Positions 31,808 through 55,011 of a DNA stretch of 64,000 nt are shown one piece after another. The notes beneath the pieces were generated by a model that saw only the letters and a list, made by a program, of their open reading frames with translations, was not told the DNA's origin and ran no database searches. The stretch's first letter is position 1; each line of letters begins with the position of its first letter. Source of the DNA: Sulfurimonas sp. C5 (GTDB lineage: Bacteria > Campylobacterota > Campylobacteria > Campylobacterales > Sulfurimonadaceae); NCBI RefSeq assembly GCF_029872055.1, contig NZ_JARXNQ010000001.1, positions 496,001-560,000 on the forward strand, in the 5' to 3' direction. The position numbers and the translations under genes are program-made.

Positions 31808-31891
31808 GCCAGCGTGGTGGAATGGTAGACACGACGGATTCAAAATCCGTTATCTTCGGATGTGGGGGTTCAAGTCCCCCCGCTGGTACCA
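31808..31891 (+). tRNA. tRNA-Leu (anticodon CAA)
   Basis: Complete class II tRNA of 84 bases including encoded CCA. The acceptor arms GCCAGCG and CGCTGGT pair, the anticodon stem ACGGA/TCCGT encloses loop TTCAAAA with CAA at positions 34-36, there is a long variable arm, and the T arm has GGGGGTTCAAGTCCCCC. Its 3' 56 bases (31836-31891) form part of the attachment repeat of the island that follows, so the integration regenerates an intact tRNA. Confidence 0.97.
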
Positions 31892-31893
31892 CT
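31836..31893 (+). repeat. Left attachment repeat (attL, inside tRNA-Leu)
   Basis: 58 bases identical to 54954-55011. Begins with GGATTCAAAATCC in the anticodon arm and ends just past the CCA. Confidence 0.93.
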
Positions 31894-32247: not shown

Positions 32248-32514
32248 TTGCAAGTTTTTCCAGATATTAATAAAGAGGAATTAGATACTTTTTACAAAAA
32301 CATAGGTAAAAATGTAAGAGATGCCCGAAACAAAAAACAAGTAAGTCAATTAGAACTAGCAATAGCAATAGGACATAAAAGTACATCATTCTTATCTAAT
32401 TGTGAAAACTATAAATTTAAAGAGCACTTTAATCTTGAACATCTTTATTTAATATCTAAAGTTTTAGAAGTTGATATTTGTGAACTAATATATGGTGATG
32501 CTCATAATGAGTAA
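32248..32514 (+). CDS. XRE-family HTH regulator heading the restriction operon
   Basis: 88 residues, nearly all a Cro/C1-type helix-turn-helix (IGKNVRDARNKKQVSQLELAIAIG...). The start codon is TTG; no ATG gives a full domain. The stop overlaps the dptF start, so it is co-expressed with the dpt genes. Dnd clusters often carry DndB as repressor; none is here, so this protein may take the regulatory role (inference). Confidence 0.8.
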   Translation: MQVFPDINKEELDTFYKNIGKNVRDARNKKQVSQLELAIAIGHKSTSFLSNCENYKFKEHFNLEHLYLISKVLEVDICELIYGDAHNE

Positions 32515-34093
32515 ACTATACGATCTAATCTCAAAACTTTCAAAGTCTTCACCAGAAGCAGTTAATACTTTAAAAAGTTCTAATTCAAGTTTAATGGATT
32601 ACCTGTATATTACAACTGAAGTAGAAAAAAAATATTTAGAACTTTTAGAACAAAATTTCTCCAATAAGTCCATTATATTTTTATGTGGTAGTAGTGGGGA
32701 TGGAAAGTCTGCAATAATCAACCGTCATTATAAAAAGTATAAATCAAATTATGAGTTTCATGTTGATGCTACTCATAGTTTTGAACCATCTCAAACTTCT
32801 ATAGAAGCATTAAACGAAAGTTTTACTAAATATAAAAATTCGAACAAATCTTTAGTAGTAGGTATTAATATTGGGATTATGCTGAATTTTATTGCGGAAG
32901 GCTCTCAAGAGCATAGTGATATTATAGATTCTTTCAAATTATATGATAAAAAGCGCACCTCTTCAAATAATATTTTTTTTATAAATTTTGAAGATTATCC
33001 AAAATTTAAATTTGAGAACAAACAAATATCTTCGCCATTTATTGAATCTATATTAAACAAAATTACAGAGCAATCAGAAGAAAATCCTTTTTATAAAGCT
33101 TTTTTAGAGGATATAGAAAATGAAACTACATCTGTTGTCCATCAAAACTATAAACTTCTATCAGACAAAAGTATTCAAAAGTCTATAATTAATCTATTAA
33201 TTCTAGTATATTTAAAATATGATCAATTTGTTACAGCAAGAACTTTACTAGATTTTATTTATACTCTTATAAAGGGTCCAAAAATATTGATAAACCAGCT
33301 ATTTGAAGAGCGTTCTAATCCTATTATAAACAATATACACAAAGAAGACCCTATACTAAACAGGACATTTTTACTTGATAAATTTATTTTAGAAAGTTCT
33401 ACAAATCAAACTAATAATGACCTAGATACTTTTATAGAAGATTTTAACAAAGCATGTAAAAAACCTATATTGAAAAATAATGAACCGTTTACATTATTAA
33501 GATGTTTTTACTTATTTAAAGATTGTGAACTTTCAAATAACTATCACCATATATTTAAAGATAGTTTTGAAAAATCCACAAAAAATATAATTAACTTTAT
33601 TGAATTGATTTCTAGTCATCAGAACTATGATAAAACTGTTATCAAAGAGTTTTATGAAAAATTAAAAAATGCAATCTACATATATGTAAATAAAACAGCT
33701 CCAACACTTACCGAAAAGAAACTATTTACTATTTCTGCTATTGAGAACAGCATTATAGCAACACCTCTAAAGATACGTGAAAATACCGACAAAATTAAAG
33801 AGCATCAAATTAATACTTTCAACTCATTTCCACTATTTATTACGATAAATGGAATAGAGATTAAAACGATAGATATTACATTTAATATGTATCAACTTCT
33901 ACTATCAATAAATGAAGGTTACAGACCAAATAAACATGATAGAAATACAATAATTATATTTGAAGAGTTAATTCAATCGATAAATGAAATAGCAATATTA
34001 TCTGAAGAAATTAGTATTATCCATGATAAAACAAGAATTGATTTTAGCTACATAGAAGATGATGATATAGAGGTGCAAAAATATGAAAGATAA
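32507..34093 (+). CDS. dptF: DNA phosphorothioation-dependent restriction protein DptF
   Basis: 528 residues from the ATG at 32507 (MSKLYDLISKL); the frame is open 5 codons further. A P-loop (GSSGDGKS, residues 61-68) and a following FINFEDYPKF segment mark a P-loop ATPase. Size, position before a DptG-size gene and a giant P-loop gene, and dndCDE nearby identify it as DptF (also DndF), a component of the restriction arm that attacks DNA lacking phosphorothioate. Overlaps the XRE gene by 8 bases and dptG by 11. The assignment rests partly on synteny. Confidence 0.8.
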   Translation: MSKLYDLISKLSKSSPEAVNTLKSSNSSLMDYLYITTEVEKKYLELLEQNFSNKSIIFLCGSSGDGKSAIINRHYKKYKSNYEFHVDATHSFEPSQTSIEALNESFTKYKNSNKSLVVGINIGIMLNFIAEGSQEHSDIIDSFKLYDKKRTSSNNIFFINFEDYPKFKFENKQISSPFIESILNKITEQSEENPFYKAFLEDIENETTSVVHQNYKLLSDKSIQKSIINLLILVYLKYDQFVTARTLLDFIYTLIKGPKILINQLFEERSNPIINNIHKEDPILNRTFLLDKFILESSTNQTNNDLDTFIEDFNKACKKPILKNNEPFTLLRCFYLFKDCELSNNYHHIFKDSFEKSTKNIINFIELISSHQNYDKTVIKEFYEKLKNAIYIYVNKTAPTLTEKKLFTISAIENSIIATPLKIRENTDKIKEHQINTFNSFPLFITINGIEIKTIDITFNMYQLLLSINEGYRPNKHDRNTIIIFEELIQSINEIAILSEEISIIHDKTRIDFSYIEDDDIEVQKYER

Positions 34094-35399
34094 ATTATTG
34101 CAAACTACTGTGGAAGATATAGGAAGTAGGAACTCTATTGCTAAATTTTATCCCTTTACTTCAAGTGATGAAAACTATAAAAAAAAGTTTTCATATGATG
34201 AAGTAATTGGAGAGTTTTTTTCTTATATTTCAAGTACACATCTTACAGCGTATGACTATGAAAAACTGAAAAACAATTGTATAAATAAATTTCAAGATGC
34301 ATTAAATAGTTCAGATGCCACATCTCTTTTAGAAACTATATACTTAAAAGAAGAAAAAATCAATATAAACTCTTTACTGCTATATCAAACATATAAAGGA
34401 AGTGAAAAGTCAAAAGACATTTCTAAAATTTTTAATGAATTAGCAGATAGAAGTTTTCTTAATATAAATATGGATAGTAATGTTAACTTTTTAGAAAAAA
34501 TAATTATAGATGAGTTAAAAAATCATGTAAAAGAGAATAATATACCTGAAAGTACTTCATCTTATCTTGAGTTTTTACAACCACTCTTCAATAAAGATTT
34601 ACAGTTTATATCAAGCAATAAGCACTATTTCGTAAAAAACATAGAAGCTTTTTTCGAATTATATCTTTTTATATATTGTGCACAGCTTGCCTTAAATCTA
34701 AAGCCAAATGAAAATGCTCTTTCTAACACAGAAGCAAAAGAATTGTATTTTGTATTAAAATATGAAACTGTCAGTAAAGAAAGAAAGCATGTATTTGAAC
34801 AAGGGTATGAATATCTTTATGAAAAAAGTAAATATATTTTCCCATACTTTTCATTATTAAGTGCACTGGCTCAATCATTAGCTACTGAAGATTTAAGACT
34901 ATATGAACTGTATGAAAAATTTGAAGATACACAGGAGAATGTAGAAGCTTTCGACTATTTCCATAAAATATACAGAGAAGCAAAAGAATTAAACAATGAT
35001 GAAAAAGTTTTTAAGTCAAAAGATCTTACTGAATCGTTAAATGCCCTGTTAGACTCTTCTTATGAACAGTTTAGACCAAGCTATCCTAATCGCTTTCGGG
35101 CACTTACAAAATATCTAAACGTATTTAAAAGGCATATAGCACAACCCTTTACAAAAAGTGCAGGAAGAAATGGAACTGTACTTTCTTTTGACCAAGACAC
35201 AATAATATTATTAACTAACATCTCAATAGGAGAATCAAAACAGCTTAGATTTCAAGAGTTGCTAAAAGAGTTTAAAAAAAGAGGTGTCTTTTTTGATTCA
35301 AAATCACAAAATGAACTGTTGAATTTATATGAAAGAGTGGGAAATATTGAAAGAAAAAGTGATAGTGGGGATGCAGTATATGTCAAAACAACAATTTAA
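34083..35399 (+). CDS. dptG: DNA phosphorothioation-dependent restriction protein DptG
   Basis: 438 residues, largely helical, with no P-loop or nuclease motif that I can see. DptG (DndG) proteins have no well-defined catalytic role; they act with DptF and DptH. Identified by its place between dptF and dptH, with overlaps on both sides, and by size. Sequence-level recognition alone would be weak. Confidence 0.72.
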   Translation: MKDKLLQTTVEDIGSRNSIAKFYPFTSSDENYKKKFSYDEVIGEFFSYISSTHLTAYDYEKLKNNCINKFQDALNSSDATSLLETIYLKEEKININSLLLYQTYKGSEKSKDISKIFNELADRSFLNINMDSNVNFLEKIIIDELKNHVKENNIPESTSSYLEFLQPLFNKDLQFISSNKHYFVKNIEAFFELYLFIYCAQLALNLKPNENALSNTEAKELYFVLKYETVSKERKHVFEQGYEYLYEKSKYIFPYFSLLSALAQSLATEDLRLYELYEKFEDTQENVEAFDYFHKIYREAKELNNDEKVFKSKDLTESLNALLDSSYEQFRPSYPNRFRALTKYLNVFKRHIAQPFTKSAGRNGTVLSFDQDTIILLTNISIGESKQLRFQELLKEFKKRGVFFDSKSQNELLNLYERVGNIERKSDSGDAVYVKTTI

Positions 35400-38300
35400 T
35401 AATTTTCTTGCAAACAAAATTTACACATGGTCTACTTCAAATTTAAAATCTGGAAATAGATATGGATTTTATTCTGACAATAAAGAACAAATAAAATCTT
35501 TACAAGAAGCCCTAAGCTCTCTATCAAATAGCACTAAAAATTTTGAACTTGAAACAAATAAACTTGGAACAAATAGTGTAGCTTTACCATATATTGATAT
35601 CAATGGTATAAAATTAGTTTTTGTAGATGATATATCTATGAATCCATTTTATATATCAAATATTAGAGATTCGTTATCTAAAAATCCTGATTGTGCATTA
35701 TTAATTTTACATAAAAACAGACTAGATACACTTATTAGTGCTATAACAGACCTAAGCCTTCCAACTTATCCACTGAACTTAATAACTATAAAGTCTGAGT
35801 TACAAAAGTTGATTACAGAAAAGACTACACATAAAGCAATTTTTGAATACTTACTAAATTATCAATCTACTATGATTGAAGATGACCAACAATCAGTATT
35901 TGGATACGAAGTTTTATACAATTCTATTGTAAATAATAAAATTGATTTTCCATCTTTTGAGTTATTTGAAGATGAAGAATTATATAGTTTTGACAATGGC
36001 TTATTAAAAGCTGATACAGATAAGATCAAACAAAGAATAGATAAAAATGACAAACTTTACAGAGAAATAAAAAACACTATAACAAATTTTCCGAATGAAC
36101 TAGAAGATAAGTTATCTGATCTATCTCCTAAATTTATAAAAGATAATATTGTAAAAAAAGATTGGCAAGAACTATCATATAATGATATTAGTGTAGAAAT
36201 AGATGCGAATAAAGGTCAAAAAATACTTTTTGATGGGTTTCATTGTGATGATGTTCATGAAATTAGAGAGGACAGTCTTAGTGCAGCAGGACAAAGAAAA
36301 AAGAATATTATTGTCTTAACAGATACTAATAAAGTTACTTTAACTTTTAAATTTGATGAAGCTACTGGTATAAAGTCAAGTAACTTTACAATAAGTCATA
36401 ATCAAAATTTTAAAAAACTATATGAGAATAAAATCTCTTGCTCTGGAGGAATAAAAAAAACAGCTACTCTAGAGTTTGATTATGATTTTAAACCTTTATA
36501 TTTTACAGTTAACTTTAAAGGGAACAAAGCTTCTGAAAACCAAATATTTAAAGTTTTAGTCTTACAAAAAGGTATGTTCTATATAGATGCAATAAAAAAC
36601 AATTTTATTGTTAGACCTAACCGACAAGAAGTATTACTACAACTTGGCAATAACCTCAAGTTAAAACTAAATGATAAAGAAATAGTAAAAACTATTAAGT
36701 TGACTAATGAGAATGAAGAGATAGATGTAAATGAATACGATGAAGTGGATCTAAAACACTATTATAACAATCATGATGAAGTAAAGCTTAGCATATCTAA
36801 CGGTGATAATAAGCTAAATCTTAATGTTGAAGGTGAAACAGAAACAGAAACTATTCCTATACCATTCCTATTTAATAAGTCCAAGGCAGACCATCTTTTT
36901 GGTTCTAATAAGGATATGGAATTTAAACAAGCAAAAAATAAGGTTGTATATGAAAATAGAGAACGAGATTTAGTTGCAGAAAGACTGGTATATATTAAAT
37001 ATGAACAAAAATTTATTGATGAAGAAATATTTGCATCAACTACTGATGATTTTTCTATAGAAATATTAAAAGATATAAATAGCAATATTTATGAAGCTTT
37101 TAAGAATCTTTTAGACTACTTCAAAAAGAACAAAACCACACCTTCACTTTGTTCATGGAATGATACAGTCTATACTTTAACAAAAACATTTGTAAATCAC
37201 TACTTAGAATATATGCAAACGGCTGAAGAGAATAAATCTTTAAATGATTTTCATAAGCTTTTATTTGAATTTGGATTTTTTAGAATAGATCATAAAAAAA
37301 TGGCTTCACCATTTTCACCTTTGATATTGTCTTATATTGTCAACCTTATCGAAAATGCAAAAGATAGTAACAGTCATTATAAAGATATTTCAGAAGTTAC
37401 ACTTAGTAGATTAAATCCAAAAGGATTGTTTCCTTATCTGTTTATAGATAAAGAGAATTATGCATTTACTAAAGTTGTAAAAGAGAACTCATTATGGTTA
37501 GAGTTTGTACCGAATGAAAAAAATGAATTTTCTTATGTGAAAAAACTAACTTATGAAAAAATAGATGAATTTACAAGCTCATTTAAACAACTGTTTGAGT
37601 TTAGAAATGATGCTCCACTGATTATTAACAGTATAAATAACAATACTAACAAAGAACTTTTTGAAGGTATAGTTCAATTTTATAAAAAAAGTACACTATC
37701 TTATCCTATAAAAATCATTGTAAATTTATATGATGATGAATATTGTCAAACAGCATTTGACACCTTTGCCGATCTTGATAAATATGAAGATATAAAAAAT
37801 GAATTTTCTCAATTTGGAAATGAGTCTGATACACTCATAGATACAATAAGAACACATTTAACTTATAGTAAACATTTAACTTCAGAAAAACAAAATTATT
37901 CGCATCTTTCTTTTTTTAAAAACAATGAAAAAATTGAGATAAAGGATAATAGAACTCAAGATCAGAATAAATCAGGGTTAGTTGCAAATGGTCTAATTTC
38001 TGGTGAGAGTTCACAAAAAGAAAATGGATATTACTATAGTGGTTTTGGGCTACATAATGTTCAAGAAAACAATAGTTCACATATAGAACTGGCTAAAATA
38101 TACAACGCTATGCAAAGAGCTGTATATGAAGATGGTACGAACTACGAATCTAATAAAACTATTTCTCTTATGATAAGCGAAAAGTTCAAAGATTTACTTA
38201 AAAAATCTTATAAAAATGCACTTTGGACTGTGATTATTGATCCAAAAGTTACTCTAGAATTTTTTGACAATGAAGAAAACTTAATCCTTATACACTACTC

Positions 38301-40479
38301 TGATCAATATAGCTCATCTGCAAACTATGATGCTATAACTGTAACAGCTAGAAAAGAATTATATTCTAATGTAATCTTTAGCGATAATAAACTCATTGAT
38401 AAAGAAAGCATAGTAAAACAGTTTAATGCGTTCAATGGTGAATGGCTTATTAAAATGATAACTGAACCAGAAAAAGACAAAAAAGAAAAGATAGGAATTA
38501 TCACAGCATACAAATATATTACTTCAATAGTAGATACTGATGACATAACTTGGGTTCCACTTTCAGTAGCAGAGATGATTAGAGTGTCTGGAAATGTTGG
38601 ATTATCTATGGACAGCAGTGATTTTACAAGATATAACCATAATAAAAACAGTGAAGATGCAGCTTTACATAAAGGTGTGATTTCAGATGATATTTTACTC
38701 GTAGGCTTCAAAAAAGACGATGTTATACTTTATCCAGTAGAAGTAAAAGCTAGTAGTGCAGATATGCAAAAAGCTTGTGAACAAGCCATTTCTTTAAAAA
38801 GGTTTTTTTATGATCATCTTTTTATTGGAGATAGTTTAAAAACGAGACTGTTAAAAGGTCTATTTATTAGACAAGTATTTATGCAGATTGAAAAGTATGA
38901 GCTTTATGATATCTTCAAAGATAACTATTTTGAAGATATGTATAAAAATAGAGAAAAGCTTTTAGATGGTACATACAATTTAATAGAATTAGAAAACTAT
39001 AGTTCAGGTGCTGTTGTTGCATTTTTAGATAAAAATCAATACGACACACAAATGCATCTGAAAGATGAAATACTAGAGATAAGGTTACCTTACCAATTAC
39101 AAAACCTAATGATCCAAGACACTTATGAGGAGATGAAACATAAAGTACAAAATGGCTCATACGGTACAAATAAAAAATACTTGTTAAGTAACTTATCATT
39201 AGATGCGACATTATCTGAAGTAGAAGTAGAAACTAAATATCAACATGATAGTTCAAGTACAGATGAATTTGAAGAAGACAGAAAACTTTCTAACACTGAA
39301 GACAGTGTCCAAGAGATAGAAAAATCTTCTACTTCAACACAACTTATAGAGATACTGTTTGGTAAAGACAGCTTAACAGAGCAAAATATTTTTTGGCATC
39401 CTACAAATACAACTGAAAATCAAAATACTTGTACTGGAATAATAGGTAGAAGTGGTACGGGAAAAACGCAATTTACAAAGTCGCTTATTACTCAGCTAGT
39501 TCAACAATCAAAAAACAACTTAGATGGTAAAAAGATCGATATCCTAATTTTTGATTATAAAAAGGACTATATCAAACCTGATTTTGTAAAAGCTACAAAT
39601 GCTAAAGTACTCGATTTAGAAAAACTACCAATCAACCCTTTAGAGTTATTTGGTGATACCCCTAAGCTTCCTACACATACAGGTAGGACTCTTACAACAA
39701 CACTATCAAAAGCATTTAACCTAGGAAATGTTCAAAGAAACACTTTGAAAAATATTATCCAAGATGCATATAGAGCAAAAGGTATAGACTCATCCGATAA
39801 ATCAACATGGTCTTTACCTGCACCAACTCTCAATGATCTATGGGAACTGTATATAGAGAGTGAAGATGTAAAACAAGACTCCCTATATGCAGCTTTAGAT
39901 GACTTGATAGATTTTGAGATATTTGAAAGTGATAGTTCAAAAACAAAATCTCTTTATGATGTTATAGATGGCGTAACAGTGGTTAATCTCTCTGGCTATG
40001 ACTCTAATATACAAGACTTGGTAGTAGCAATTTTACTTGATCTATTTTATGTTCAAATGCATAAGAATGGTTCTTCAAAAGTAAATGGTGATTTTATACA
40101 GATAACCAAAATGATACTTGTGGATGAAGCAGACAACTTTATGTCAAAAGACTTTGACAACCTTAAAAAGATACTAAAAGAAGGAAGAGAATTTGGTGTA
40201 GGTACTATTCTTTCTACTCAGGAACTTACCCACTTTAGAACTTCTGAAGATGACTATGCTAGCTATATATTTACATGGATAGTTCATAAAGTTGCAAACT
40301 TAAAAATACAAGATATTCAATCTATTTTCAACATAAACAATAAAACAGATGCAGAAGACTTAATGAGTCAAATAAGAGAGCTACAAAAGCACTACAGTTT
40401 TTATGTAGATGGTAATAAGGAAATTACTAAGATACATGATTTGGCATTTTTTGAGTTATTAAAAGGAGAAAGAAAATGA
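35380..40479 (+). CDS. dptH: DNA phosphorothioation-dependent restriction protein DptH
   Basis: 1699 residues from the ATG at 35380, chosen because GGGGA lies 8-12 bases upstream; the frame is open 17 codons more. The C-terminal third is a HerA/FtsK-like motor: Walker A GRSGTGKT (about 1355-1362), Walker B ILVDEADNF (about 1579), and a STQELTHF sensor. A central segment, DVILYPVEVKAS (about 1110-1122), has the D-x(n)-ExK pattern of PD-(D/E)XK nucleases. DptH (DndH) is the motor, and presumably the nicking or cleaving part, of phosphorothioation-dependent restriction. Its stop overlaps the next start by 4 bases. Confidence 0.82.
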   Translation: MSKQQFNNFLANKIYTWSTSNLKSGNRYGFYSDNKEQIKSLQEALSSLSNSTKNFELETNKLGTNSVALPYIDINGIKLVFVDDISMNPFYISNIRDSLSKNPDCALLILHKNRLDTLISAITDLSLPTYPLNLITIKSELQKLITEKTTHKAIFEYLLNYQSTMIEDDQQSVFGYEVLYNSIVNNKIDFPSFELFEDEELYSFDNGLLKADTDKIKQRIDKNDKLYREIKNTITNFPNELEDKLSDLSPKFIKDNIVKKDWQELSYNDISVEIDANKGQKILFDGFHCDDVHEIREDSLSAAGQRKKNIIVLTDTNKVTLTFKFDEATGIKSSNFTISHNQNFKKLYENKISCSGGIKKTATLEFDYDFKPLYFTVNFKGNKASENQIFKVLVLQKGMFYIDAIKNNFIVRPNRQEVLLQLGNNLKLKLNDKEIVKTIKLTNENEEIDVNEYDEVDLKHYYNNHDEVKLSISNGDNKLNLNVEGETETETIPIPFLFNKSKADHLFGSNKDMEFKQAKNKVVYENRERDLVAERLVYIKYEQKFIDEEIFASTTDDFSIEILKDINSNIYEAFKNLLDYFKKNKTTPSLCSWNDTVYTLTKTFVNHYLEYMQTAEENKSLNDFHKLLFEFGFFRIDHKKMASPFSPLILSYIVNLIENAKDSNSHYKDISEVTLSRLNPKGLFPYLFIDKENYAFTKVVKENSLWLEFVPNEKNEFSYVKKLTYEKIDEFTSSFKQLFEFRNDAPLIINSINNNTNKELFEGIVQFYKKSTLSYPIKIIVNLYDDEYCQTAFDTFADLDKYEDIKNEFSQFGNESDTLIDTIRTHLTYSKHLTSEKQNYSHLSFFKNNEKIEIKDNRTQDQNKSGLVANGLISGESSQKENGYYYSGFGLHNVQENNSSHIELAKIYNAMQRAVYEDGTNYESNKTISLMISEKFKDLLKKSYKNALWTVIIDPKVTLEFFDNEENLILIHYSDQYSSSANYDAITVTARKELYSNVIFSDNKLIDKESIVKQFNAFNGEWLIKMITEPEKDKKEKIGIITAYKYITSIVDTDDITWVPLSVAEMIRVSGNVGLSMDSSDFTRYNHNKNSEDAALHKGVISDDILLVGFKKDDVILYPVEVKASSADMQKACEQAISLKRFFYDHLFIGDSLKTRLLKGLFIRQVFMQIEKYELYDIFKDNYFEDMYKNREKLLDGTYNLIELENYSSGAVVAFLDKNQYDTQMHLKDEILEIRLPYQLQNLMIQDTYEEMKHKVQNGSYGTNKKYLLSNLSLDATLSEVEVETKYQHDSSSTDEFEEDRKLSNTEDSVQEIEKSSTSTQLIEILFGKDSLTEQNIFWHPTNTTENQNTCTGIIGRSGTGKTQFTKSLITQLVQQSKNNLDGKKIDILIFDYKKDYIKPDFVKATNAKVLDLEKLPINPLELFGDTPKLPTHTGRTLTTTLSKAFNLGNVQRNTLKNIIQDAYRAKGIDSSDKSTWSLPAPTLNDLWELYIESEDVKQDSLYAALDDLIDFEIFESDSSKTKSLYDVIDGVTVVNLSGYDSNIQDLVVAILLDLFYVQMHKNGSSKVNGDFIQITKMILVDEADNFMSKDFDNLKKILKEGREFGVGTILSTQELTHFRTSEDDYASYIFTWIVHKVANLKIQDIQSIFNINNKTDAEDLMSQIRELQKHYSFYVDGNKEITKIHDLAFFELLKGERK

Positions 40480-42290
40480 AAATTGACCCATCTTATACAA
40501 ACCTGAGAAGAATGTTTGCTTCCCAAGCAACATATTATGTGCCAAAATATCAAAGAGCATATGCATGGGAAAATGAGTCTATTCAAGATTTTTTGAATGA
40601 TTTAAAAAGATCCTATACTGAGAGACTAGCTAGTAGAGATTCTAGTCACTTTTTTGGTGGAATTCTAAGTATTAAGCATACTGTTGTTGGTGCTGTAGAC
40701 GAACATAAGTATGAAATTATTGATGGACAACAAAGAATTACAACGTTTACATTAACAATACGCTGTCTGATCAATATGTATAATGACTTATTGACGTATC
40801 CTAATATAGATGCGACTAAAGTATCAATGATCAATAATCGAATAGATAATTTACAAAAACGATTTATAGCTTTTAGACAAGAAATCAACTTAGAAGAACA
40901 AGTTGTAAATGTTTTTACAGTTTCTAAAAGAGATAAGGAATTTTATGCTGAACTAATGAAAGGAAATATAATCAATGAAAATCCTGAAAAATATTCTCAC
41001 AAAAACCTTCTGAATAGTTATAAAAAAATCAATAAATTTTTTAAAGACACTGTATTAATAGATGATGATTTAACTGAAATTTTAAAAAGATTACAAACTT
41101 TTGAATTTGTCATTGATACAGACTTTACATTATTGCACATGGTTGCAGATAATGAAAAATCTGCATATAGGTTATTCCAAGTCATAAATGACAGAGGAAT
41201 GAGTTTAACAGAAGGTGATCTCCTAAGAGCTAAAACCTTGGAAGTGTTAGAAGATTTTCCTTCAATTCAAAACTCTGTTGAATTGATATGGGATAAGTTA
41301 TTATCCAATGCACCAAATATTACTTCTCAGTATTTAACTTGGATTTATACTTCATACACTGGAAAAGATTTAAAAAAAAGTGAAATCTTTGATAAATTTT
41401 TGGACCAATTTTTCCCAGAACATAAAGAAGAACTTGATCAGTTAAAAGCGGACAATATTCTGACAACAATGAAATATCTTGAAAAAGATTTTGAAAACTG
41501 TCAAAGACTATCGGATGGTGAATGGATTTATACAGTCAAACAACCTATTACTGCAAGGGACAGGAATAGATTTGAAGTATTGATGAATACTTTAGACCAT
41601 CCTTTGTCAATGCCATTGTTTATTGCTGCTTCAAAGTTAGATGATAAACAGTTTTCAGCAATCGTAAAAATAGTTGAAAAAGTTTTCTTTAGATATATCC
41701 TCATTTGTAAACAACATTTAGGTTCACTCAAGTCAATTTATTTTAGACAGATAAAAGAAATTAGAACCAATGCAGCTACATACACATTAACTGATTTCAA
41801 AACTAAAGTAAATCAACTACTTGCAAGTAAGGCTAATGATGCACTATTCACTGCCAATTTGAAAGAGCTAGAATATGATTCAGATCAAAGTAATAAATAT
41901 TTAAAATTTTTCCTTATGACATTAGAATATCATTTTCCATATTATCTTCAAGATCCAAGTCGATCAACCACAAAGTGCCTCAATAACACCAACCCTTATG
42001 ACTTTGCAGGAACTTCAATAGAACATATTTATCCTAAAAATGCTTTAACAACTGATATTGATGCAGATATTGAACCTATAAAAAATACTATAGGTAATCT
42101 GGCATTAATGGATCCTCAACATAATTCGGAACAACGAAATAATAAGTTCTTAGATAAAAAATCAGAATATGTATCTTCATCAATAGAGGTTTTAAAATAT
42201 GTTAGTACACATGCTAACTGGACAAAAGCTGAAGTTGAAGACTTAGAAGAAAAATATATTGATTTAGCATTAAAACACTTTAGAGCATAA
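40476..42290 (+). CDS. DUF262-DUF1524 (GmrSD/SspE-like) restriction protein
   Basis: 604 residues. The N-terminal DUF262 domain has VPKYQRAYAWE (22-32) and the ParB-like DGQQR motif (83-87); the C-terminal DUF1524 domain has an HNH-type H-x-x-P (H517, P520) and IGNLALM...HN...R-N-N-K. Relatives are type IV enzymes GmrSD and BrxU, and SspE, which senses phosphorothioate and nicks unmodified DNA. It overlaps dptH by ATGA, so it is a member of the dpt operon. Whether it reads phosphorothioate like SspE is inference from context. Confidence 0.85.
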   Translation: MKIDPSYTNLRRMFASQATYYVPKYQRAYAWENESIQDFLNDLKRSYTERLASRDSSHFFGGILSIKHTVVGAVDEHKYEIIDGQQRITTFTLTIRCLINMYNDLLTYPNIDATKVSMINNRIDNLQKRFIAFRQEINLEEQVVNVFTVSKRDKEFYAELMKGNIINENPEKYSHKNLLNSYKKINKFFKDTVLIDDDLTEILKRLQTFEFVIDTDFTLLHMVADNEKSAYRLFQVINDRGMSLTEGDLLRAKTLEVLEDFPSIQNSVELIWDKLLSNAPNITSQYLTWIYTSYTGKDLKKSEIFDKFLDQFFPEHKEELDQLKADNILTTMKYLEKDFENCQRLSDGEWIYTVKQPITARDRNRFEVLMNTLDHPLSMPLFIAASKLDDKQFSAIVKIVEKVFFRYILICKQHLGSLKSIYFRQIKEIRTNAATYTLTDFKTKVNQLLASKANDALFTANLKELEYDSDQSNKYLKFFLMTLEYHFPYYLQDPSRSTTKCLNNTNPYDFAGTSIEHIYPKNALTTDIDADIEPIKNTIGNLALMDPQHNSEQRNNKFLDKKSEYVSSSIEVLKYVSTHANWTKAEVEDLEEKYIDLALKHFRA

Positions 42291-42297
42291 CCTCAAA

Positions 42298-44490
42298 ATG
42301 TACCAATATCAACCTTTATCTAATGAAAAATATTTAGAATATTTAATAAGAGACTTATTATCAATAGAATTTATAAACTATTCTCCTTTTGATTTATATG
42401 GTAGTAGAGGTCAGGAGCAATACGGTAATGATATTATAGGATATAACACGTCTGGACGTATGATTTTGGCACAAGTTAAGAAAAAGAGTCTCTCTAGAAA
42501 TAAAATAAAAGAAGCACTACTTAATGATTTAACAAAAGAGACCAAAAGTATTATCAATTATTTTCAAACCGATAAAATTGATACTATTTTTTTTGCTTCT
42601 ACTCATGGACGAGATAAAGATATCCAAGATAAAGCATTAAAATTGACACAAGAATATGGTGTAAAAATTATTTATTGGGGATGGGATACTATTGAAGAAA
42701 AAATTAGTCATTCAAATGAAATTCAAAAGAAGTATTTTCATAAAAAAACAACAACATTGTTAACAATACTACCAGAAAATTCATATTGTATAGGTCGAGA
42801 AAATGAATTTAATGAAATTAAAACTTTATTAAATAAAGACAATATTATAAATATTCAAAGTATTGGTGGTATAGGAAAAAGTACACTTGCAAATGCTTTT
42901 ATACATAGTGAAAGAGAAAACTATGACTACATTGGTTATATCTCAGTTGATGATAGTCTTGAAGAAGCTTTTTTTAGAAGTTTTAATAACTTCTTTAACT
43001 TTTCAGAAAATGATGATTTAGAAAGTATAATATATAAATTACAATCTCTTAATGGAAAAAAAATACTGATAATTGATAATTTAACTTATCAAAAAGACAT
43101 AGTATATATCAAAAAAATCACTAGCTCTTTTAAAGTTGTGATTACATCAAGAATATTATTTAATGATATACCTAGTTTAAAATTAAGACAACTAAATGAC
43201 AACTCCTTAAAAGAGTTATTTAACAAATATAATGATGAAGATATTGAGGAACAATACTTAAATGAACTCTTTAAATACTTAGACTATCATACTTTATTTA
43301 TTGAATTGACATCAAAAACAATCAACCAAAATAACTTTACAATCGACTATATTCTAAATGAATTTAGAGATGGAAAGTTCCCCATAATAAAAGTGGATAC
43401 TAATTTAGATACCTATCAAGAAGAAATATATAACGATTATCTCAGAAAACTATTTGAAGAATCTATTGAAAAACTTGATGATGGACTTTTTAATGGTTTA
43501 ATATTATTATCATTATTTCCTTCTATTAATTTACATGTAGATGAAATTGGTAGAGTTTTTAATGCAGATTTACGTAATGATTTGTCTTTATTGAGTAAAA
43601 AAGGTTGGCTTATTTCAATTGAAAAAGAAGTATTTAAAATTCATCAGATTATAAAAGAATTTTTTTTATTCAACTTTCCACTTGTCGCAGAAGACGTAAC
43701 TCCTATGATTAAATACTATTTAGAAAATTTGAAATGGAATGAAATAGATCATCCTAGTGAACAAAAATCATATATGATTTTTGTTCAATCATTAATTGAT
43801 GGTCTAAAAAGTTATGATGAAGAAGTTATGACTTTAGCAAATAATATTGCAATGCTTTATAGATATTTTGGTTTTTATGAAATTGCTTTAAAGTATATGT
43901 TAATGGTTAAAGACTTTGATGAAGAAAGTGGTAATAAAATGAATCTCGCTCAAACTTATAACAATCTTGCTCAAGTATATTTTAGTATGAAACAATATGA
44001 ATTAGGTGAGCAGTATGCTATGCTTTCTTTAAAATTGCGAGAAGAAAATAGTCCTTATAATATTCAAGAAAATTACTTGAATATGTGTAATAGCTATATA
44101 AGGCAATCAAATTATAAAGAGGCAAAAGTATATTTAGATAAACTTCTAACGCTAGAAGTTGATATAAGAAGCATTATTCCAATATATAACTCTGCTATGC
44201 TTTATTATTTAAATATTGAAAATACTAAAGAAGCATTTAAATATGCAGAACAAGCATTAGAACATATAAATAGTAATAAAGTCGATACTAAACATTTATA
44301 TATAGCATATACATATAGTAATATTGCAGATATATATGTTGAAGATAAAAACATTACACTTGCAATTGAGTATAAATTAAAAGCAAAAGAACATATTTTA
44401 GAAAATTTTGGTGATCAACACCCAGATTTAGAACCAATAGAAAATATCTTAAATATACTACAATATATCTTTAAAACAGAGTATTTATAA
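42298..44490 (+). CDS. Nuclease-STAND ATPase-TPR protein (Avs-like architecture)
   Basis: 730 residues. N-terminal restriction-endonuclease-like domain (GQEQYGNDIIGYN...ILAQVKKK: E40, D45, Q59, K61). Then a STAND/NB-ARC NTPase: Walker A GGIGKST (190-196), Walker B ILIIDN (D260), and the VITSR sensor (281-285). Helical winged region, and from about 520 tetratricopeptide-type repeats (YNNLAQVYFSMKQYELGEQYAMLSL). This nuclease-switch-sensor plan is that of antiviral STAND proteins that bind a phage protein and activate an effector. It starts 7 bases after the DUF262 gene without a clear ribosome-binding site, suggesting coupling to the dpt operon. Ends convergent with dndE. Confidence 0.8.
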   Translation: MYQYQPLSNEKYLEYLIRDLLSIEFINYSPFDLYGSRGQEQYGNDIIGYNTSGRMILAQVKKKSLSRNKIKEALLNDLTKETKSIINYFQTDKIDTIFFASTHGRDKDIQDKALKLTQEYGVKIIYWGWDTIEEKISHSNEIQKKYFHKKTTTLLTILPENSYCIGRENEFNEIKTLLNKDNIINIQSIGGIGKSTLANAFIHSERENYDYIGYISVDDSLEEAFFRSFNNFFNFSENDDLESIIYKLQSLNGKKILIIDNLTYQKDIVYIKKITSSFKVVITSRILFNDIPSLKLRQLNDNSLKELFNKYNDEDIEEQYLNELFKYLDYHTLFIELTSKTINQNNFTIDYILNEFRDGKFPIIKVDTNLDTYQEEIYNDYLRKLFEESIEKLDDGLFNGLILLSLFPSINLHVDEIGRVFNADLRNDLSLLSKKGWLISIEKEVFKIHQIIKEFFLFNFPLVAEDVTPMIKYYLENLKWNEIDHPSEQKSYMIFVQSLIDGLKSYDEEVMTLANNIAMLYRYFGFYEIALKYMLMVKDFDEESGNKMNLAQTYNNLAQVYFSMKQYELGEQYAMLSLKLREENSPYNIQENYLNMCNSYIRQSNYKEAKVYLDKLLTLEVDIRSIIPIYNSAMLYYLNIENTKEAFKYAEQALEHINSNKVDTKHLYIAYTYSNIADIYVEDKNITLAIEYKLKAKEHILENFGDQHPDLEPIENILNILQYIFKTEYL

Positions 44491-44548: not shown

Positions 44549-44950
44549 CTATAGAAATTCCTGCTTAATCCACTCAAAAACATTACTATTCTCATTAAGT
44601 GAAGAGGCTAAGATTGTAAAGCCTCTTTCACAGTGTTGTTCAAGAGATAGTTCTAACCCTCTATGCGTATTTACTTTTTTATTTTCATTATTTGCTATAA
44701 GTAAAGCTATCATATCTGTATAGTCAGCTTGTTCACCATGAGTATCTACTTTTGTTTTACCAGTAATTACATCTAAAGGGTATGTTTTACCATCTTTGAA
44801 ATCTATTTTTATAGAACTATCTAGTTTTTCATCTATAGAAAGAGATATAAAGATAGCAAACCTTATTGTTACCCACTTTGGCTCATTTTCAAAACCGAGT
44901 AGTTTAGAGATCTTAGGTAATTGCATTTCTGTGGAGTTTGTAGTTCTCAT
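44549..44950 (-). CDS. dndE: DNA phosphorothioation protein DndE
   Basis: 133 residues. Small basic-to-acidic protein that in known systems binds nicked DNA and is needed for sulfur insertion with DndC and DndD. Identified from size, from the LPKISKLLGFENEPKWVTIRFAIFISLS segment and from its position with a 4-base ATGA overlap after dndD. Last gene of the minus-strand dndCDE run, 58 bases from the converging STAND gene. No terminator hairpin is evident between them. Confidence 0.85.
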   Translation of the reverse strand: MRTTNSTEMQLPKISKLLGFENEPKWVTIRFAIFISLSIDEKLDSSIKIDFKDGKTYPLDVITGKTKVDTHGEQADYTDMIALLIANNENKKVNTHRGLELSLEQHCERGFTILASSLNENSNVFEWIKQEFL

Positions 44951-46911
44951 TTAGTGTACCTACTATCAAAAAATTCTGTTATATTTTTCTCTTGCATCGT
45001 TGTGGCCGAGCCTTTATTGGCAAGTGTAAATATTTGTGAGATCTCACTTTGAAGCTCTTGAAAACCTTCATGTCTTAGCTCACTTGGGGTTGGCAGTATT
45101 AGCACTTGCTTTGAAGCATTTGGATAAAACTGGTTCAGTATAAGGGCTTGATTTTTCTCATCTAGTCTTCCTAATGGTGTATCTATGATCATTGGTATAT
45201 CTTCTGCTATATACTCAGATATCCCCCAAATAAGTGCCGTAGCTATAACCTGTTTTTGTCCAGATGAGCTAGATAGTATATCCATAGGATTCATATCTTT
45301 ATCATATACATTGATGTTAAAGTCATTATCAAGCTGGATACTATCTGCTTCATATCCCTCTTTTTTTAGAAGATTAAACTTCACATTTATAGACTTTTCA
45401 AGTATCTCTTTTTTATCTTCTTTGATCTTTATCTTCATCTGTTTTGCTACTGTAATTGCAGATTCTAAAGATTCTATTTTAAGTTTTACTAAAGAGTTTT
45501 GATGCTCTTTTATACTTGTTCTTCCGATCTCACGCTCTATCTCTTTTTTCTCATATTGCAACTTTTCTATCTGTTTTTCAAGACTTTCTACTTTTGCTTT
45601 TTGTTGCCCTATATTTTCAGCAAGAGTTTTGACTTTTTCAAAGTCTTTTTTATACTCTTTTTGATCATTTTGAAAATTCTGCTCTAAATGAAAGATCTCA
45701 TTTTGAGTTTGAACAATATTTTCTTTTACAGCTATCAGATTATTTATGAGCTCTTGAAATTCAACTTTTTTCAAAGTGTTATATTGATGCTCAATTTTTT
45801 CAGGGTCTGCAAAAGCTACACTTTGTCTATTGTTATCAGAATTAAATACTTTGTCAAATATAGACTCTATACTCCCTTTTTGAGTTTCATCTATATGCTC
45901 TAAAAACTCTTTCTTTTTTAAATCTATGATATTTTGAGAAATAGTGACATTACCTTTATAGTTTTTTTGTATATCTTTTTCTACTGATTCTTTTAATTTT
46001 TTATTTAGTAATAGTGGGAGTTGCATATAAGATACTTCTTTAAACTCTTTTTGATAAGTCTCTTTTTCCTCTTCATAGCTCTGTAATTGTAGTTTTGCTT
46101 CTTCAAGTGGTTTTTTATGCTTACTTTGTAATTTAGAAAGTTTTCTATCCAGATCTTTTTGTTCTGTTAATAGCTGGTTTAAATATAGCTTTTCATCTTC
46201 ATACTCTTTAGTTACAGAGGTTAGTTTTGATTCTACTTCAAACAACTCTTCTTCTTTTTGAGTTAATTTCTGTTGAAGTTCTGAATCTAGTTCGCTTTTA
46301 TTTATCTTCTTTATTACATTTGTAGAGTCAGTTATAAGTTGATCATAAATGTCTAACTCCAGTACATCTTCTAACATTTGTCTAAATTCATCTTTACTAA
46401 AGTCAGCTATAGTTTGAATCTTTTCACCATCAAAAAAGAAAAACTTTGCAAGTGTAGGTGAGATCTTATAGTTTATAAAGTCTTGAGCTTCTAGATCACT
46501 ATATAATAAATTGTTTTCATGATCATAAACACTAAGGTTTTCAGTATAAGAGTTACTTCCTATGACATACTCTCTATAAATATAAAAACTCTCACCTGCA
46601 TCATCTACTTCTATTTTTACAGAAGCTTTATTTGCACCATTTAGTTTTGAAATACGATTGAGTACACCACTAAAGTTTTTATTTTTACTTCCTAAAATAT
46701 AATCTTGTTTAGAAAGGACAAGCTCTCCCATAGAAAGTAAATCTTTTGTAATACCATGAAGTGCTATTTTTACAGAGTTAATAAACGATGTTTTACCAAA
46801 GCCATTCTCTCCAATGATTAAAGCGATTGGTTTACTAGAATCATTAAAATCAAATGTAACTTCACCTTGATATGAAAACAGGTCTTTTATACTAATGCTA
46901 TTAAATTTCAT
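44947..46911 (-). CDS. dndD: DNA phosphorothioation ATPase DndD (SMC-like)
   Basis: 654 residues. ABC/SMC-type head split by a long coiled coil: Walker A GENGFGKTS (34-42), coiled coil about 190-500, signature SSSSGQKQ (about 566) and Walker B IPMIIDTPLGRLD (about 590). It nicks or opens DNA with ATP to allow sulfur replacement of a backbone oxygen. There is no cysteine in the whole protein, so no Rad50-type zinc hook. Overlaps dndC by 11 bases and dndE by 4. Confidence 0.92.
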   Translation of the reverse strand: MKFNSISIKDLFSYQGEVTFDFNDSSKPIALIIGENGFGKTSFINSVKIALHGITKDLLSMGELVLSKQDYILGSKNKNFSGVLNRISKLNGANKASVKIEVDDAGESFYIYREYVIGSNSYTENLSVYDHENNLLYSDLEAQDFINYKISPTLAKFFFFDGEKIQTIADFSKDEFRQMLEDVLELDIYDQLITDSTNVIKKINKSELDSELQQKLTQKEEELFEVESKLTSVTKEYEDEKLYLNQLLTEQKDLDRKLSKLQSKHKKPLEEAKLQLQSYEEEKETYQKEFKEVSYMQLPLLLNKKLKESVEKDIQKNYKGNVTISQNIIDLKKKEFLEHIDETQKGSIESIFDKVFNSDNNRQSVAFADPEKIEHQYNTLKKVEFQELINNLIAVKENIVQTQNEIFHLEQNFQNDQKEYKKDFEKVKTLAENIGQQKAKVESLEKQIEKLQYEKKEIEREIGRTSIKEHQNSLVKLKIESLESAITVAKQMKIKIKEDKKEILEKSINVKFNLLKKEGYEADSIQLDNDFNINVYDKDMNPMDILSSSSGQKQVIATALIWGISEYIAEDIPMIIDTPLGRLDEKNQALILNQFYPNASKQVLILPTPSELRHEGFQELQSEISQIFTLANKGSATTMQEKNITEFFDSRYTK

Positions 46912-48208
46912 TTATTTTTCCTGTTCCATACGCTTCTACTACTTTTTCTATATCTACAAGTACACCTGATCTTTTGAGTTGGTGTCTATATTTATGTTCT
47001 GTTTGAAGTAATTTATCCATAAGCTCTATTGATATACTGTTTTCTTCACAAAGGCTTGAAAAATATTCTCTTTCTTCTACTGAAAAAGCTTTTTTTGATT
47101 CATGATGAATGATTCTTCCTACACCTTGTGCTAAACTAATCGCTGTTTCAAAAAAGTCACCATCATGTAACCACTCTTTTTGTATCTGAATTATTTCTTC
47201 GTCAGAAATAAGATGTTTTCCATTGAGGTTTGGTAAAAGCTCTTTTTCTATCTCTAGCAGTTTTTTTAGGAGCTCTTGTCTGGTACTCATTGTAAATGGT
47301 CCAACACCTTTTTGACCATTTCTTCTTGTTGTTTGTCTTCGATTAGTATGGTCATATCTGTATTCTTCAAGCATATTTCTAAACTTATGAAGTGGTTCCA
47401 TCCATTGATCTTCTGGGTTTTGGAGCATATTTTCCATAGACTTATCTTTTGATACTACAGTACAAACCCAACAACCAAATCTAGTTTTTCCACATGAAGG
47501 TGCTTCTGGGTTAAGAGCTACATTACAGTCTGCTTCTCCGCTACCTTTACTATAAAGAGTTAGCATATCGTCATGTTTACCCCAAGGAGCTTTATGCGCC
47601 ATTAAGAACTGCCAAACTTCACCATTTGTCCAGTCTTTAATTGGTGATAGTACAAAAGCATTTGGCACTGTATCATGTTTTACTAAGCCTCTATGGTTTC
47701 TATCTCTTTTCTCAATTGACTCTGCTCTTGTTTGAGACTCATCACTTCTTACACCTAGCAACATTAAAATTGAACGATTTTCATTAGAAATACTAGTTAA
47801 AAATCTTGTAGCAGGAGTAATTTTTAGTCTATCAGTACACCATCTAAAGTTTTGATTAGGAGATGGGTAGCCTTTTCCTAGGAGTAGTGTCCAAAACGAG
47901 TCTTCCACCTCAGGAGAGACCACTTGAACTTTCATGTTTAAATTTTTTTCTTTTATAAAAAGACGTAACTGTTCAAGCTTATCAAAAAAATATTTATCTA
48001 TTACAGGCATTTCAACACCTGTGTCTGAAGAAACTATGTATACTGTTTTTGAATCTAGTCCCTCGTCTTTTAATTCTTGTAAGACTTCAATAGTCAGGTG
48101 TAATACTGTAGATGAGTCTTTACCTCCAGAAAAGGTCACAACCCACGGTCTTCCATCCGATAAGTATTGTTCTTTTAGTAATTGTTTAGTTAATGTAATT
48201 TTATTCAT
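46901..48208 (-). CDS. dndC: DNA phosphorothioation sulfurtransferase DndC
   Basis: 435 residues, PAPS-reductase-like. The PP-loop SGGKDSS (27-33) binds ATP, and four cysteines (C228, C239, C246, C249, in C-x10-C-x6-C-x2-C) hold the 4Fe-4S cluster that carries sulfur. In known systems sulfur comes from DndA or a housekeeping cysteine desulfurase; no dndA is present here, so an IscS or NifS elsewhere must serve. First gene of dndCDE. Ribosome-binding site weak (AGAAAG). Confidence 0.93.
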   Translation of the reverse strand: MNKITLTKQLLKEQYLSDGRPWVVTFSGGKDSSTVLHLTIEVLQELKDEGLDSKTVYIVSSDTGVEMPVIDKYFFDKLEQLRLFIKEKNLNMKVQVVSPEVEDSFWTLLLGKGYPSPNQNFRWCTDRLKITPATRFLTSISNENRSILMLLGVRSDESQTRAESIEKRDRNHRGLVKHDTVPNAFVLSPIKDWTNGEVWQFLMAHKAPWGKHDDMLTLYSKGSGEADCNVALNPEAPSCGKTRFGCWVCTVVSKDKSMENMLQNPEDQWMEPLHKFRNMLEEYRYDHTNRRQTTRRNGQKGVGPFTMSTRQELLKKLLEIEKELLPNLNGKHLISDEEIIQIQKEWLHDGDFFETAISLAQGVGRIIHHESKKAFSVEEREYFSSLCEENSISIELMDKLLQTEHKYRHQLKRSGVLVDIEKVVEAYGTGKINEI

Positions 48209-48489: not shown

Positions 48490-48577
48490 CAAACCATAGT
48501 CAAACCATAGTCAAACCATAGTCAAACCATAGTCAAACCATAGTCAAACCGTAGTCAAACCGTAGTCAAACCATAAT
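48490..48577 (+). repeat. Tandem array of eight 11-bp units
   Basis: Five exact CAAACCATAGT units, two CAAACCGTAGT, and one diverged CAAACCATAAT, head to tail without spacers. About one helical turn per unit. Lies 145 bases upstream of gajA. It could be an iterated binding site or a slippage-generated array; it is not a CRISPR array, as there are no spacers. Confidence 0.9.
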
Positions 48578-48721
48578 TATTAATAAAGCTATGATTATAT
48601 ATAATAATTAACTTTATAAATAAAACATTAAATTGTGATTCTAATATATTGGAAATACACTTGTTCATAAATTTCTAAACAAACTATTGATGTTTTAAAT
48701 ACCTAATTTGGATTGACGGTT

Positions 48722-50494
48722 ATGGATACAATATTAATTAAAACAGTAAGAGTAAATGGTTTTAGAGGATTAAAAAATATTGAAATAAATCTTGAACCCA
48801 CTACTGTACTTACAGGTATGAACAATGCAGGTAAAACATCTTTTTTAAAAGCCTTACAAGTTGTATTTGGAAATAGACATTTTTTATCTTTTGATGATTT
48901 CCATATAGAAGAAAATAGCTCTATATCCATGATTACTATAGATGTATTGATTGTTCCGTTAAATGAAGATGCTTCGCAAAACTTTTCGGAGGATTGGGAG
49001 ATTCTTTTAACTACAGATAGGATTAAACCCTCTCTAGATGGTGACTTTGTGCCACTTAGAACTATTGTAAGATTTGATGAAGTTAGAAATACACCAACTG
49101 TAAAACAGTATATATTAGAGGACTGGGTAGATTTTGAATATGGAGACCCTAAACACAACTGGTATGAACTTGACAATGGAAATGAAGTTTCTTTTAGATT
49201 TGAAGAAGTACCGTTTTTTTATATGGATGCTCAAAGGGATATACTTGAAGATATCAAACTAAAAAGCTCATATATTGGGAAAATGCTATCTAAAATAGAA
49301 TATACTCCGGAAGATATTGAAGATATTGAAAACCAAATACAATCGCTTAATGAATCTGCTGTAGAAAAAAGCGAAATATTAACAATTGTAAAAGATGCTT
49401 TGACAGAACTAAACTCTGCAATGAATTCTTCTAATGGAGGAATTGAAATAACACCATTTACAAAGAAAATTAGAGATTTAAACAAAGGCTTAACTATAAA
49501 CTATGGTGATGGAGACAACACTTTCTTAATGGAGTACCATGGTATGGGTACAAGAAGTTGGTCATCTCTTTTAACACTAAAAGCTTTTATAGAACTATTT
49601 AATACCAATTCTGAAAAAACAAATTCTGTTTTTTTTCCAATTATTGCAATAGAAGAACCTGAATCTCATCTACATCCAAATGCACAAAAAAGGCTTTATA
49701 GTCAAATTAATAGTTTTAAAGGGCAAAAGATCATATCTACTCATTCCCCGTATATTGCATCAGTTGCAAACCTCAGAGAAATAAGAAGTTTTTACAAAAA
49801 TAATCTTGTCAAGATAGGTGCTTTACCAATGTCTACATTTCAATGTGAAGATATAAGAAAGATTAATCGCCAAGTAATAAGTACAAAAGGTGAAATATTT
49901 TTTTCAAAATGTATAGTTCTTGGTGAAGGTGAAACAGAAGAACAAGCATTACCGGTTTTTTTTGAAAAACATTTTAATGGCTCATCAATCGAGTATGGCA
50001 TAGATTTTATAGGTGTAGGTAGTTTTGGTAACTACTTACCTTTTATTAGGTTTGCTGAATCACTAAATATACCATGGTTTATTTTAAGTGATAATGATGA
50101 TTCTGGAAATGTAAGAACAAGTGTTTTAAGACAGTTAACAACAAGTGGTAGTGCAAAACAAGAAAGCGATTGTATAGTCTTTGCAGATAATGAAAATGAT
50201 TTTGAAAAGCAGTTAATTAATGATGGATTTCAAGATGAAATTAAAAAAGTTTTATTGTCTTTAAAAACATATACAAACGAACAACATGAAAGTGTTCAAA
50301 AACCTAGAGATGAAGCTGAAATAAATGGATTATCAGACGAAGAACTTTATGAATATCTAACAAAAGAAAAAGCACAATTTGCTCCATTGGTAGCAAATGA
50401 GATTGTAAATAGTGAGAAAGCATTACCTAATAAGATTATTAACTTATTTACAAAAATAGCAACTGAACTCAATATTGAGGTACAAAATGGATAG
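48722..50494 (+). CDS. gajA: Gabija system nuclease GajA (OLD family ATPase-TOPRIM)
   Basis: 590 residues from the ATG at 48722; a TTG at 48713 is also in frame. ABC-type ATPase half with Walker A GMNNAGKT (32-39) and Walker B IIAIEEPESHLHP (about 306), then a C-terminal TOPRIM domain with LGEGETEEQAL (about 400) and LSDNDDSG (about 456). In Gabija this protein nicks DNA when nucleotide levels fall, for instance during phage replication. Overlaps gajB by 8 bases. The pair architecture separates it from lone OLD nucleases and from other Gabija-like types. Confidence 0.9.
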   Translation: MDTILIKTVRVNGFRGLKNIEINLEPTTVLTGMNNAGKTSFLKALQVVFGNRHFLSFDDFHIEENSSISMITIDVLIVPLNEDASQNFSEDWEILLTTDRIKPSLDGDFVPLRTIVRFDEVRNTPTVKQYILEDWVDFEYGDPKHNWYELDNGNEVSFRFEEVPFFYMDAQRDILEDIKLKSSYIGKMLSKIEYTPEDIEDIENQIQSLNESAVEKSEILTIVKDALTELNSAMNSSNGGIEITPFTKKIRDLNKGLTINYGDGDNTFLMEYHGMGTRSWSSLLTLKAFIELFNTNSEKTNSVFFPIIAIEEPESHLHPNAQKRLYSQINSFKGQKIISTHSPYIASVANLREIRSFYKNNLVKIGALPMSTFQCEDIRKINRQVISTKGEIFFSKCIVLGEGETEEQALPVFFEKHFNGSSIEYGIDFIGVGSFGNYLPFIRFAESLNIPWFILSDNDDSGNVRTSVLRQLTTSGSAKQESDCIVFADNENDFEKQLINDGFQDEIKKVLLSLKTYTNEQHESVQKPRDEAEINGLSDEELYEYLTKEKAQFAPLVANEIVNSEKALPNKIINLFTKIATELNIEVQNG

Positions 50495-53482: not shown

Positions 53483-53591
53483 CACTTTATATACTCAAAG
53501 ACACAGTTAATAAATAATTGATTGCACTTCATTTAAAATTGCATTTTTCAAAGCGAGTATCCCATTTGTATCGACACTTTATATACTCAAA
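53483..53591. repeat. 17-bp direct repeat and repeat arm next to the integrase stop
   Basis: CACTTTATATACTCAAA occurs at 53483-53499 and 53575-53591; the second copy covers the integrase stop codon. Between them, AAGCGAGTATCCCATTTGTA (53551-53570) is the exact inverted copy of 48398-48417. Confidence 0.7.
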
Positions 53592-54953: not shown

Positions 54954-55011
54954 GGATTCAAAATCCGTTATCTTCGGATGTGGGGGTTCAAGTCCCCCCG
55001 CTGGTACCACT
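54954..55011 (+). repeat. Right attachment repeat (attR), tRNA-Leu 3' fragment
   Basis: 58 bases identical to 31836-31893. It is only the 3' part of a tRNA (no 5' acceptor strand or D arm), so it is not a second tRNA gene. Sequence from 55012 on should be the original downstream flank of tRNA-Leu. Confidence 0.93.

Follow-up and report, generated by a model that had tools for sequence, protein, structure and literature searches.

A probable DndI gene behind dndFGH in a Dnd phosphorothioate locus of Sulfurimonas sp. C5

The dnd locus and its surroundings

The window analysed here is a 64,000-nucleotide stretch of Sulfurimonas sp. C5 (NZ_JARXNQ010000001.1, positions 496,001 to 560,000 of the forward strand), and all coordinates without a locus name refer to it. 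It carries the genes of a Dnd phosphorothioate (PT) system between two copies of a direct repeat, with the following features.

31836-31893, + strand: left copy of a 58-bp direct repeat, lying over the 3' part of tRNA-Leu (31808-31891)
32248-32514, + strand: small XRE-type HTH gene, 88 aa, scoring 23.3 bits with HTH_3 (cut-off 23); its end overlaps the probable start of dndF at 32507
32507-34093, + strand: dndF (dptF), NCBIfam DptF above cut-off; the longest ORF begins at 32492
34083-35399, + strand: dndG (dptG), NCBIfam DptG above cut-off
35329-40479, + strand: dndH (dptH), given as the longest ORF, with a likelier start at ATG 35380; HerA/FtsK-type ATPase at the C end; NCBIfam DptH above cut-off
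40476-40479, + strand: ATGA overlap between the end of dndH (40479) and the ATG of the next gene (40476), with GGAG just upstream
40476-42290, + strand: probable dndI, 604 aa, ATG start; DUF262 (NTPase with predicted PT-sensing pocket) and DUF1524 (predicted HNH nickase)
40722-40736, + strand: codons of D83-GQQR-87, the NTP hydrolysis motif, placed from residue numbers as 40476+3(n-1)
42298-44490, + strand: STAND-type NTPase (weak match) with TPR tail, 730 aa, starting 7 bases after dndI
44549-44950, - strand: dndE, Pfam 51 bits (cut-off 25)
44947-46911, - strand: dndD (ABC ATPase), NCBIfam 231.2 of 245.85 bits, just below cut-off; PADLOC matches
46901-48208, - strand: dndC (sulfurtransferase), NCBIfam above cut-off
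48713-52286, + strand: gajA and gajB (Gabija), a neighbouring defence system
53579-54691, - strand: tyrosine integrase of the island
54954-55011, + strand: right 58-bp direct repeat, an identical copy

The gene order is HTH-dndF-G-H-I-STAND, facing dndC-D-E on the other strand, without dndB and beside the Gabija genes. The ATGA overlap would couple the translation of dndH and dndI. The window DndD scores 1e-272 with the PADLOC PbeC model against 1.4e-74 with the DndD model; PADLOC therefore labels it best as PbeC, which indicates that the two models overlap. In the protein encoded behind dndI, the STAND/NB-ARC matches are weak and below cut-off, while the TPR repeats are above it. Its N-terminal 100 residues, compared by eye, look like an Mrr-type nuclease, with no Pfam match. 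A model of this protein folded without an alignment was poor (pLDDT 40.8), and seven plasmid records match it, none over 80% of its length.

The G+C content is 28.4% inside the island against 35.3% and 37.7% in the outer parts of the window, and a 28-bp core of the repeat found no match in 100 shuffles. We read 31836-55011 as a tRNA-Leu-integrated mobile defence island of about 23 kb. Between dndC and gajA, the 11-bp unit CAAACCATAGT is repeated 7.8 times (48490-48575).

Assignment of the 40476-42290 protein

Pfam places GmrSD_N (DUF262) on residues 13-253 of the protein with 113.3 bits (curated cut-off 33.2) and GmrSD_C (DUF1524) on residues 458-595 with 60.8 bits (curated cut-off 23). The DGQQR motif occupies residues 83-87, and H517 and N541 lie in the HNH-type tail. 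A sequence-only reading had described this domain pair, the DGQQR motif, the HNH-type tail, the ATGA overlap with dndH and the Dnd neighbours, all of which are borne out. NCBIfam has no model naming the protein. Its PADLOC label is Orf5 (PDLC02695, E 6e-209), not DndI; for the DndI of Salmonella Infantis the best PADLOC model is the sister PDLC02701 (5.8e-268), with PDLC02695 second. A protein search of its own genome at E<=0.001 returned the protein itself as the sole match.

Among all PDB chains searched with phmmer, 9JFL, a crystal structure of DndI of Salmonella enterica Cerro 87, ranks first, with E 4.1e-85 over residues 1-602 of 604. In that strain dndI is co-transcribed with dndFGH, beside the modification genes (PMC11662687), and the window protein resembles its product in length, domain order, P23/Y25/Q26, D83GQQR87, N541 and a dndFGH operon by modification genes. 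SspE chains follow with E 5.7e-11 or weaker, and their best stretches cover residues 20-94 or 19-96. A profile built from three DndI sequences, the window protein included, scores the window protein at 1.9e-203.

A tree was built from 43 DUF262 proteins (four DndI, two SspE, one BrxU and 36 others; GmrSD was left out). The four DndI rows, two of them from Salmonella, form one clade with support 100/100 that contains the window protein, and within it the window protein is nearest to the DndI of Methylobacterium (97/90). The motif NDRGxxLTEG occurs in all four DndI and in none of the 39 other DUF262 proteins. In the alignment the window protein is 29.4% identical to 9JFL, 15.5% and 15.3% to the two SspE and 16.7% to BrxU; by sequence SspE is among the most distant DUF262 proteins compared (about 15% identity). 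The two SspE and BrxU are also the last three of 42 BLAST matches, the better SspE match having E 1e-8 over 82 residues and BrxU, the weakest, E 0.01.

The AlphaFold model has a mean pLDDT of 82.8, from an alignment of 24 other rows at 16-23% identity with no known DndI among them. Its best fold match by VIA-align is 9JFL (Z 31.5 over 581 residues), followed by the SspE C-terminal domain (Z 24.0), full SspE (Z 23.9, rmsd 22 A) and BrxU (Z 12.8); Foldseek with the model gave E 1.2e-30 for 9JFL and 1.1e-13 for SspE. BrxU appeared in the VIA-align list, and was not returned by phmmer at E<=1, by the profile search at E<=10 or among the best 50 of 87 Foldseek rows.

These comparisons bear on whether the protein could be of the SspE type, with a nuclease that stays silent until activated by the host PT mark, in which case PT would permit cutting instead of preventing it. 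SspE of the SspABCD-SspE system has the same DUF262-DUF1524 pair and DGQQR, is likewise a nickase and senses PT through the equivalent tyrosine (PMC9646914, PMC13251355), and its structures come second in the fold comparison (Z about 24). However, the window protein shares only about 15% identity with the two SspE, the better BLAST match spans 82 residues, and the clades are separate. The rmsd of the whole-chain superposition points to a differing domain arrangement. SspE has 771-818 aa in the solved structures, is PT-activated and is paired with SspBCD, whereas the window gene is flanked by dndCDE and dndFGH and has no sspBCD beside it. SspE membership was rejected on tree, identity and fold, and SspE-type action is very unlikely.

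The sequence-only reading had also proposed a type IV enzyme of the GmrSD/BrxU kind, which would cut phage DNA with modified bases and merely ride with the Dnd genes. The domain pair, whose Pfam names are GmrSD_N and GmrSD_C, and the DGQQR motif are common to these enzymes; BrxU, too, sits within the operon of a different defence system (BREX), and GmrSD itself stood outside the comparison. GmrSD and BrxU differ in acting on base-modified DNA, and BrxU is one long branch outside the DndI clade into which the window protein falls, besides having the weakest BLAST match and the lower fold score, and it carries Ile at the sensor position. BrxU membership was rejected on tree, BLAST rank and fold Z, and, with BrxU as the type IV enzyme compared, a type IV role is very unlikely. 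The PADLOC mREase_IV model found nothing in 150 related genomes at 1e-60, with its control recovered in E. coli.

The window protein is therefore very probably DndI, the second restriction arm of the Dnd PT defence, with the mechanism described below. Its family, clade and predicted fold, the three residues mutated in Salmonella DndI, the operon context and the island are observed for the window protein directly. The phylogeny with SspE and BrxU that had been suggested as a check sets it in the DndI clade, apart from both, with GmrSD left out. The idea of an SspE-like protein out of place in a Dnd locus falls away, as DndI is a named component of dndFGHI operons. Of the "hybrid phosphorothioate reader", the reader stands and the hybrid does not: the protein belongs to DndI, for which PT sensing has been shown experimentally (PMC11662687), and a PT reader is accordingly the better of the two options that had been offered. 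It is a new, distant copy of an already described enzyme and in that respect largely ordinary.

PT sensing and the proposed mechanism

The DndI of Salmonella has an ATPase activity that is stimulated by PT-DNA, and needs R87 of DGQQR for ATPase activity, Y25 for the PT response and N541 for nicking; it is harmful to cells without PT (PMC11662687). Together with DndBCDE it protects E. coli, and alone in Salmonella it gives weak protection, with an efficiency of plating of 0.8 for phage PT1 (PMC11662687). Among 31,478 genomes, dndBCD, dndFGH and dndI occurred together in 72, so that this combination was already known, and dndBCD with dndI but without dndFGH in 61 (PMC11662687). In PMC4373003, "dndI" stands for "dnd island", which is different from the dndI gene.

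Y25, R87 and N541 are identical and identically numbered in the window protein, as are P23/Y25/Q26. None of the three mutated residues is specific to DndI, as R87 and N541 occur in all 37 other DUF262 proteins (the 36 others and BrxU) and Y25 in 22 of them. The sensor tyrosine is present in all four DndI and both SspE; the remainder of the 37 carry F (8), N (4), H (2) or, in BrxU, I (1). P-x-Y-Q-R was rejected as a PT signature, P and Q being found in 37/37 others and Y in 22/37. The structure prediction that had been proposed for the pocket delivered the fold and 9JFL as best match, and the pocket residues, although kept, are not diagnostic. We infer PT sensing by the window protein from the DndI clade and the context, not from the pocket motif.

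By analogy with the Salmonella DndI work, ATP use, PT sensing, nicking and the direction of control may be proposed as follows. DndC, DndD and DndE, with a cysteine desulfurase presumably encoded elsewhere in the genome, would place sulfur onto some positions of the host-DNA backbone. The DUF262 domain of DndI would hydrolyse ATP via DGQQR, and the P23/Y25/Q26 pocket would sense the PT mark and speed hydrolysis. Faster ATP hydrolysis may bring the two DndI domains together and release the enzyme from self DNA, and unmarked (phage) DNA would be nicked by the C-terminal HNH domain. DndFGH, encoded in the same operon, would rely on this mark as well, acting independently as a translocating nickase that is blocked by PT. 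The window genome has six Aminotran_5 matches, five over cut-off; one of these proteins could supply the sulfur, the superfamily including cysteine desulfurases but being broader.

The system studied in Salmonella is IscS-DndBCDE-DndI, whereas a search of the whole window genome for DndB returned no match at E<=0.01. Since DndB is described as non-essential for PT modification (PMC8569181), we treat its absence as a difference of the system and not of the protein. The window operon also differs from that of Salmonella DndI in having an HTH gene at its head and a STAND gene after dndI. With an identity to Salmonella DndI of only about 29%, details may differ, and the PT motif may differ as well, as the window DndC and DndD are distant from their Salmonella Infantis counterparts (28-35% identity, for DndD over parts only).

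Relatives and the last gene of PT restriction operons

The PADLOC Orf5 model at 1e-40 picks out 18 of the 397 genomes in the phylum sample (the control, Methanosarcina acetivorans, was recovered); the best after the window scores 9.5e-66 against 9.9e-209 for the window. The 17 other proteins were all placed in the tree and all fall outside the DndI clade, which has no further member in this sample. In 248 genomes of the order, SspE gave no match at 1e-40, with no control recovered either. Salmonella Infantis dndI DNA had no match in E. coli genomes, and a single contig scan of genomes returned one distant DUF262 protein. Viral contigs gave 384 candidate stretches and from these 110 relatives (best E 3e-24), 80 of which were kept; the 14 of the 80 that were put in the tree lie outside the DndI clade.

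Seventeen wider regions around PADLOC-Orf5-like proteins of the phylum held dnd genes in one case (G120). Of 137 loci scanned, five gave dnd matches, and in two of the five the match was weak and to the SspD-type gene of ssp loci. For many of the loci the flanks reach only 1.5 kb, and some places are represented twice. Besides the window, two DndI-clade loci were read, L053 of Salmonella Infantis SARB27 and L054 of Methylobacterium bullatum, and both also adjoin dnd modification genes: in each, dndI faces dndE-D-C-B, at a distance from dndE of about 140 bases in L053 and 1.5 kb in L054. L053 has a DGQHR gene in front of dndI, and in L054 dndI follows a clear pbeA, an ABC gene with only weak PbeC matches and a 163-aa gene; neither has a DndF, DndG or DndH match in the 31.8 kb read. 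So, in our sample, most such DUF262 proteins are untied to Dnd and the four DndI-clade members are tied to it, 9JFL on the evidence of PMC11662687.

DndH at 1e-60 was found in 4 of 228 genomes of the window's bacterial family and in 3 of 397 genomes of the phylum sample. G249 and G100 have the window layout, dndFGH facing dndEDC, with 48-63% identity in F, H, C, D and E and about 35% in G. In the place of DndI, G249 encodes a 111-aa protein and one bearing DGQHR, whose DndB family match falls below cut-off, and G100 a 565-aa AIPR/AbiU protein overlapping dndH by four bases (L061 13925-15622). Seven dndFGH loci were read on the 3' side (window, G249, G100, Aliivibrio, Pseudoalteromonas, E. coli H240 and Massilia); their last genes are DndI and STAND in one, a small and a DGQHR protein in four (the small gene of H240 being judged from the gap only), AIPR in one and an 80-aa and a 441-aa protein in one (Massilia, where dndE does not face these two genes). 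The count leaves out G614 (L153), whose contig ends 364 bases after dndH, and Aeromonas L155, in which no DndH was found; among the 27 plasmid records that match DndH, six cover at least 80%, of which H49-H52 were read and H53 and H54 left out. In L153 (365-7555), of the same genus as the window, the DndH-like frame has 2396 aa and its two DndH-matching parts lie about 2.2 kb apart, so that the protein may contain a large insertion. In L155 (14421-18834), of Aeromonas caviae, dndF and dndG are present, and the 33 kb read gave no match to DndH.

The presence of DndI in only one of the seven dndFGH loci, the window, indicates that it is dispensable for DndFGH, which speaks for a passenger that lacks nuclease activity, either decayed or regulatory. 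The intact ORF, the conserved residues tested in Salmonella and the ATGA overlap with GGAG upstream, which suggests coupled translation, count against such a passenger, and we give this explanation next to no probability beside that of an active DndI.

Two pbe-type loci also have a DUF262 protein at the corresponding end: that of Methylobacterium, whose protein is in the DndI clade, and that of G120, whose protein is outside it. In G120 (L156 4958-11514 and 11512-15204), pbeA, pbeC and a 153-aa gene are followed by a DUF262 gene that encodes His in place of the sensor Tyr and ends beside dndE; the facing dndE-D-C are 52-62% identical to the window's. Both loci were found through the DUF262 gene, so they do not give the frequency of DUF262 in pbe loci. 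We tentatively suggest that the operon's last position by dndE may be a swappable effector slot behind a constant dndFGH or pbe core, filled by DndI, the His-bearing DUF262 protein, AIPR/AbiU or a small and a DGQHR protein; in the window, DndI and STAND could act in series as a back-up when phages disarm DndFGH. The sample behind this hypothesis is small and uneven. Such an exchange of the last gene or genes in PT restriction operons was not found in print, by a literature search not closely aimed there.

The identity as DndI removes the apparent paradox of an SspE-like protein in a Dnd locus, a matter already explained in print (PMC11662687). The window DndI is one of several defences on a mobile island, and its setting is somewhat unusual. 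The PT-sensing tyrosine cannot be used for calling PT readers, and the DUF262 protein of L156, which lies by dndCDE and has His where DndI and SspE need Tyr, offers a natural test. To the DndI characterised in Salmonella are now added one from a distant lineage, carried by a mobile island, and one encoded behind a pbe operon.
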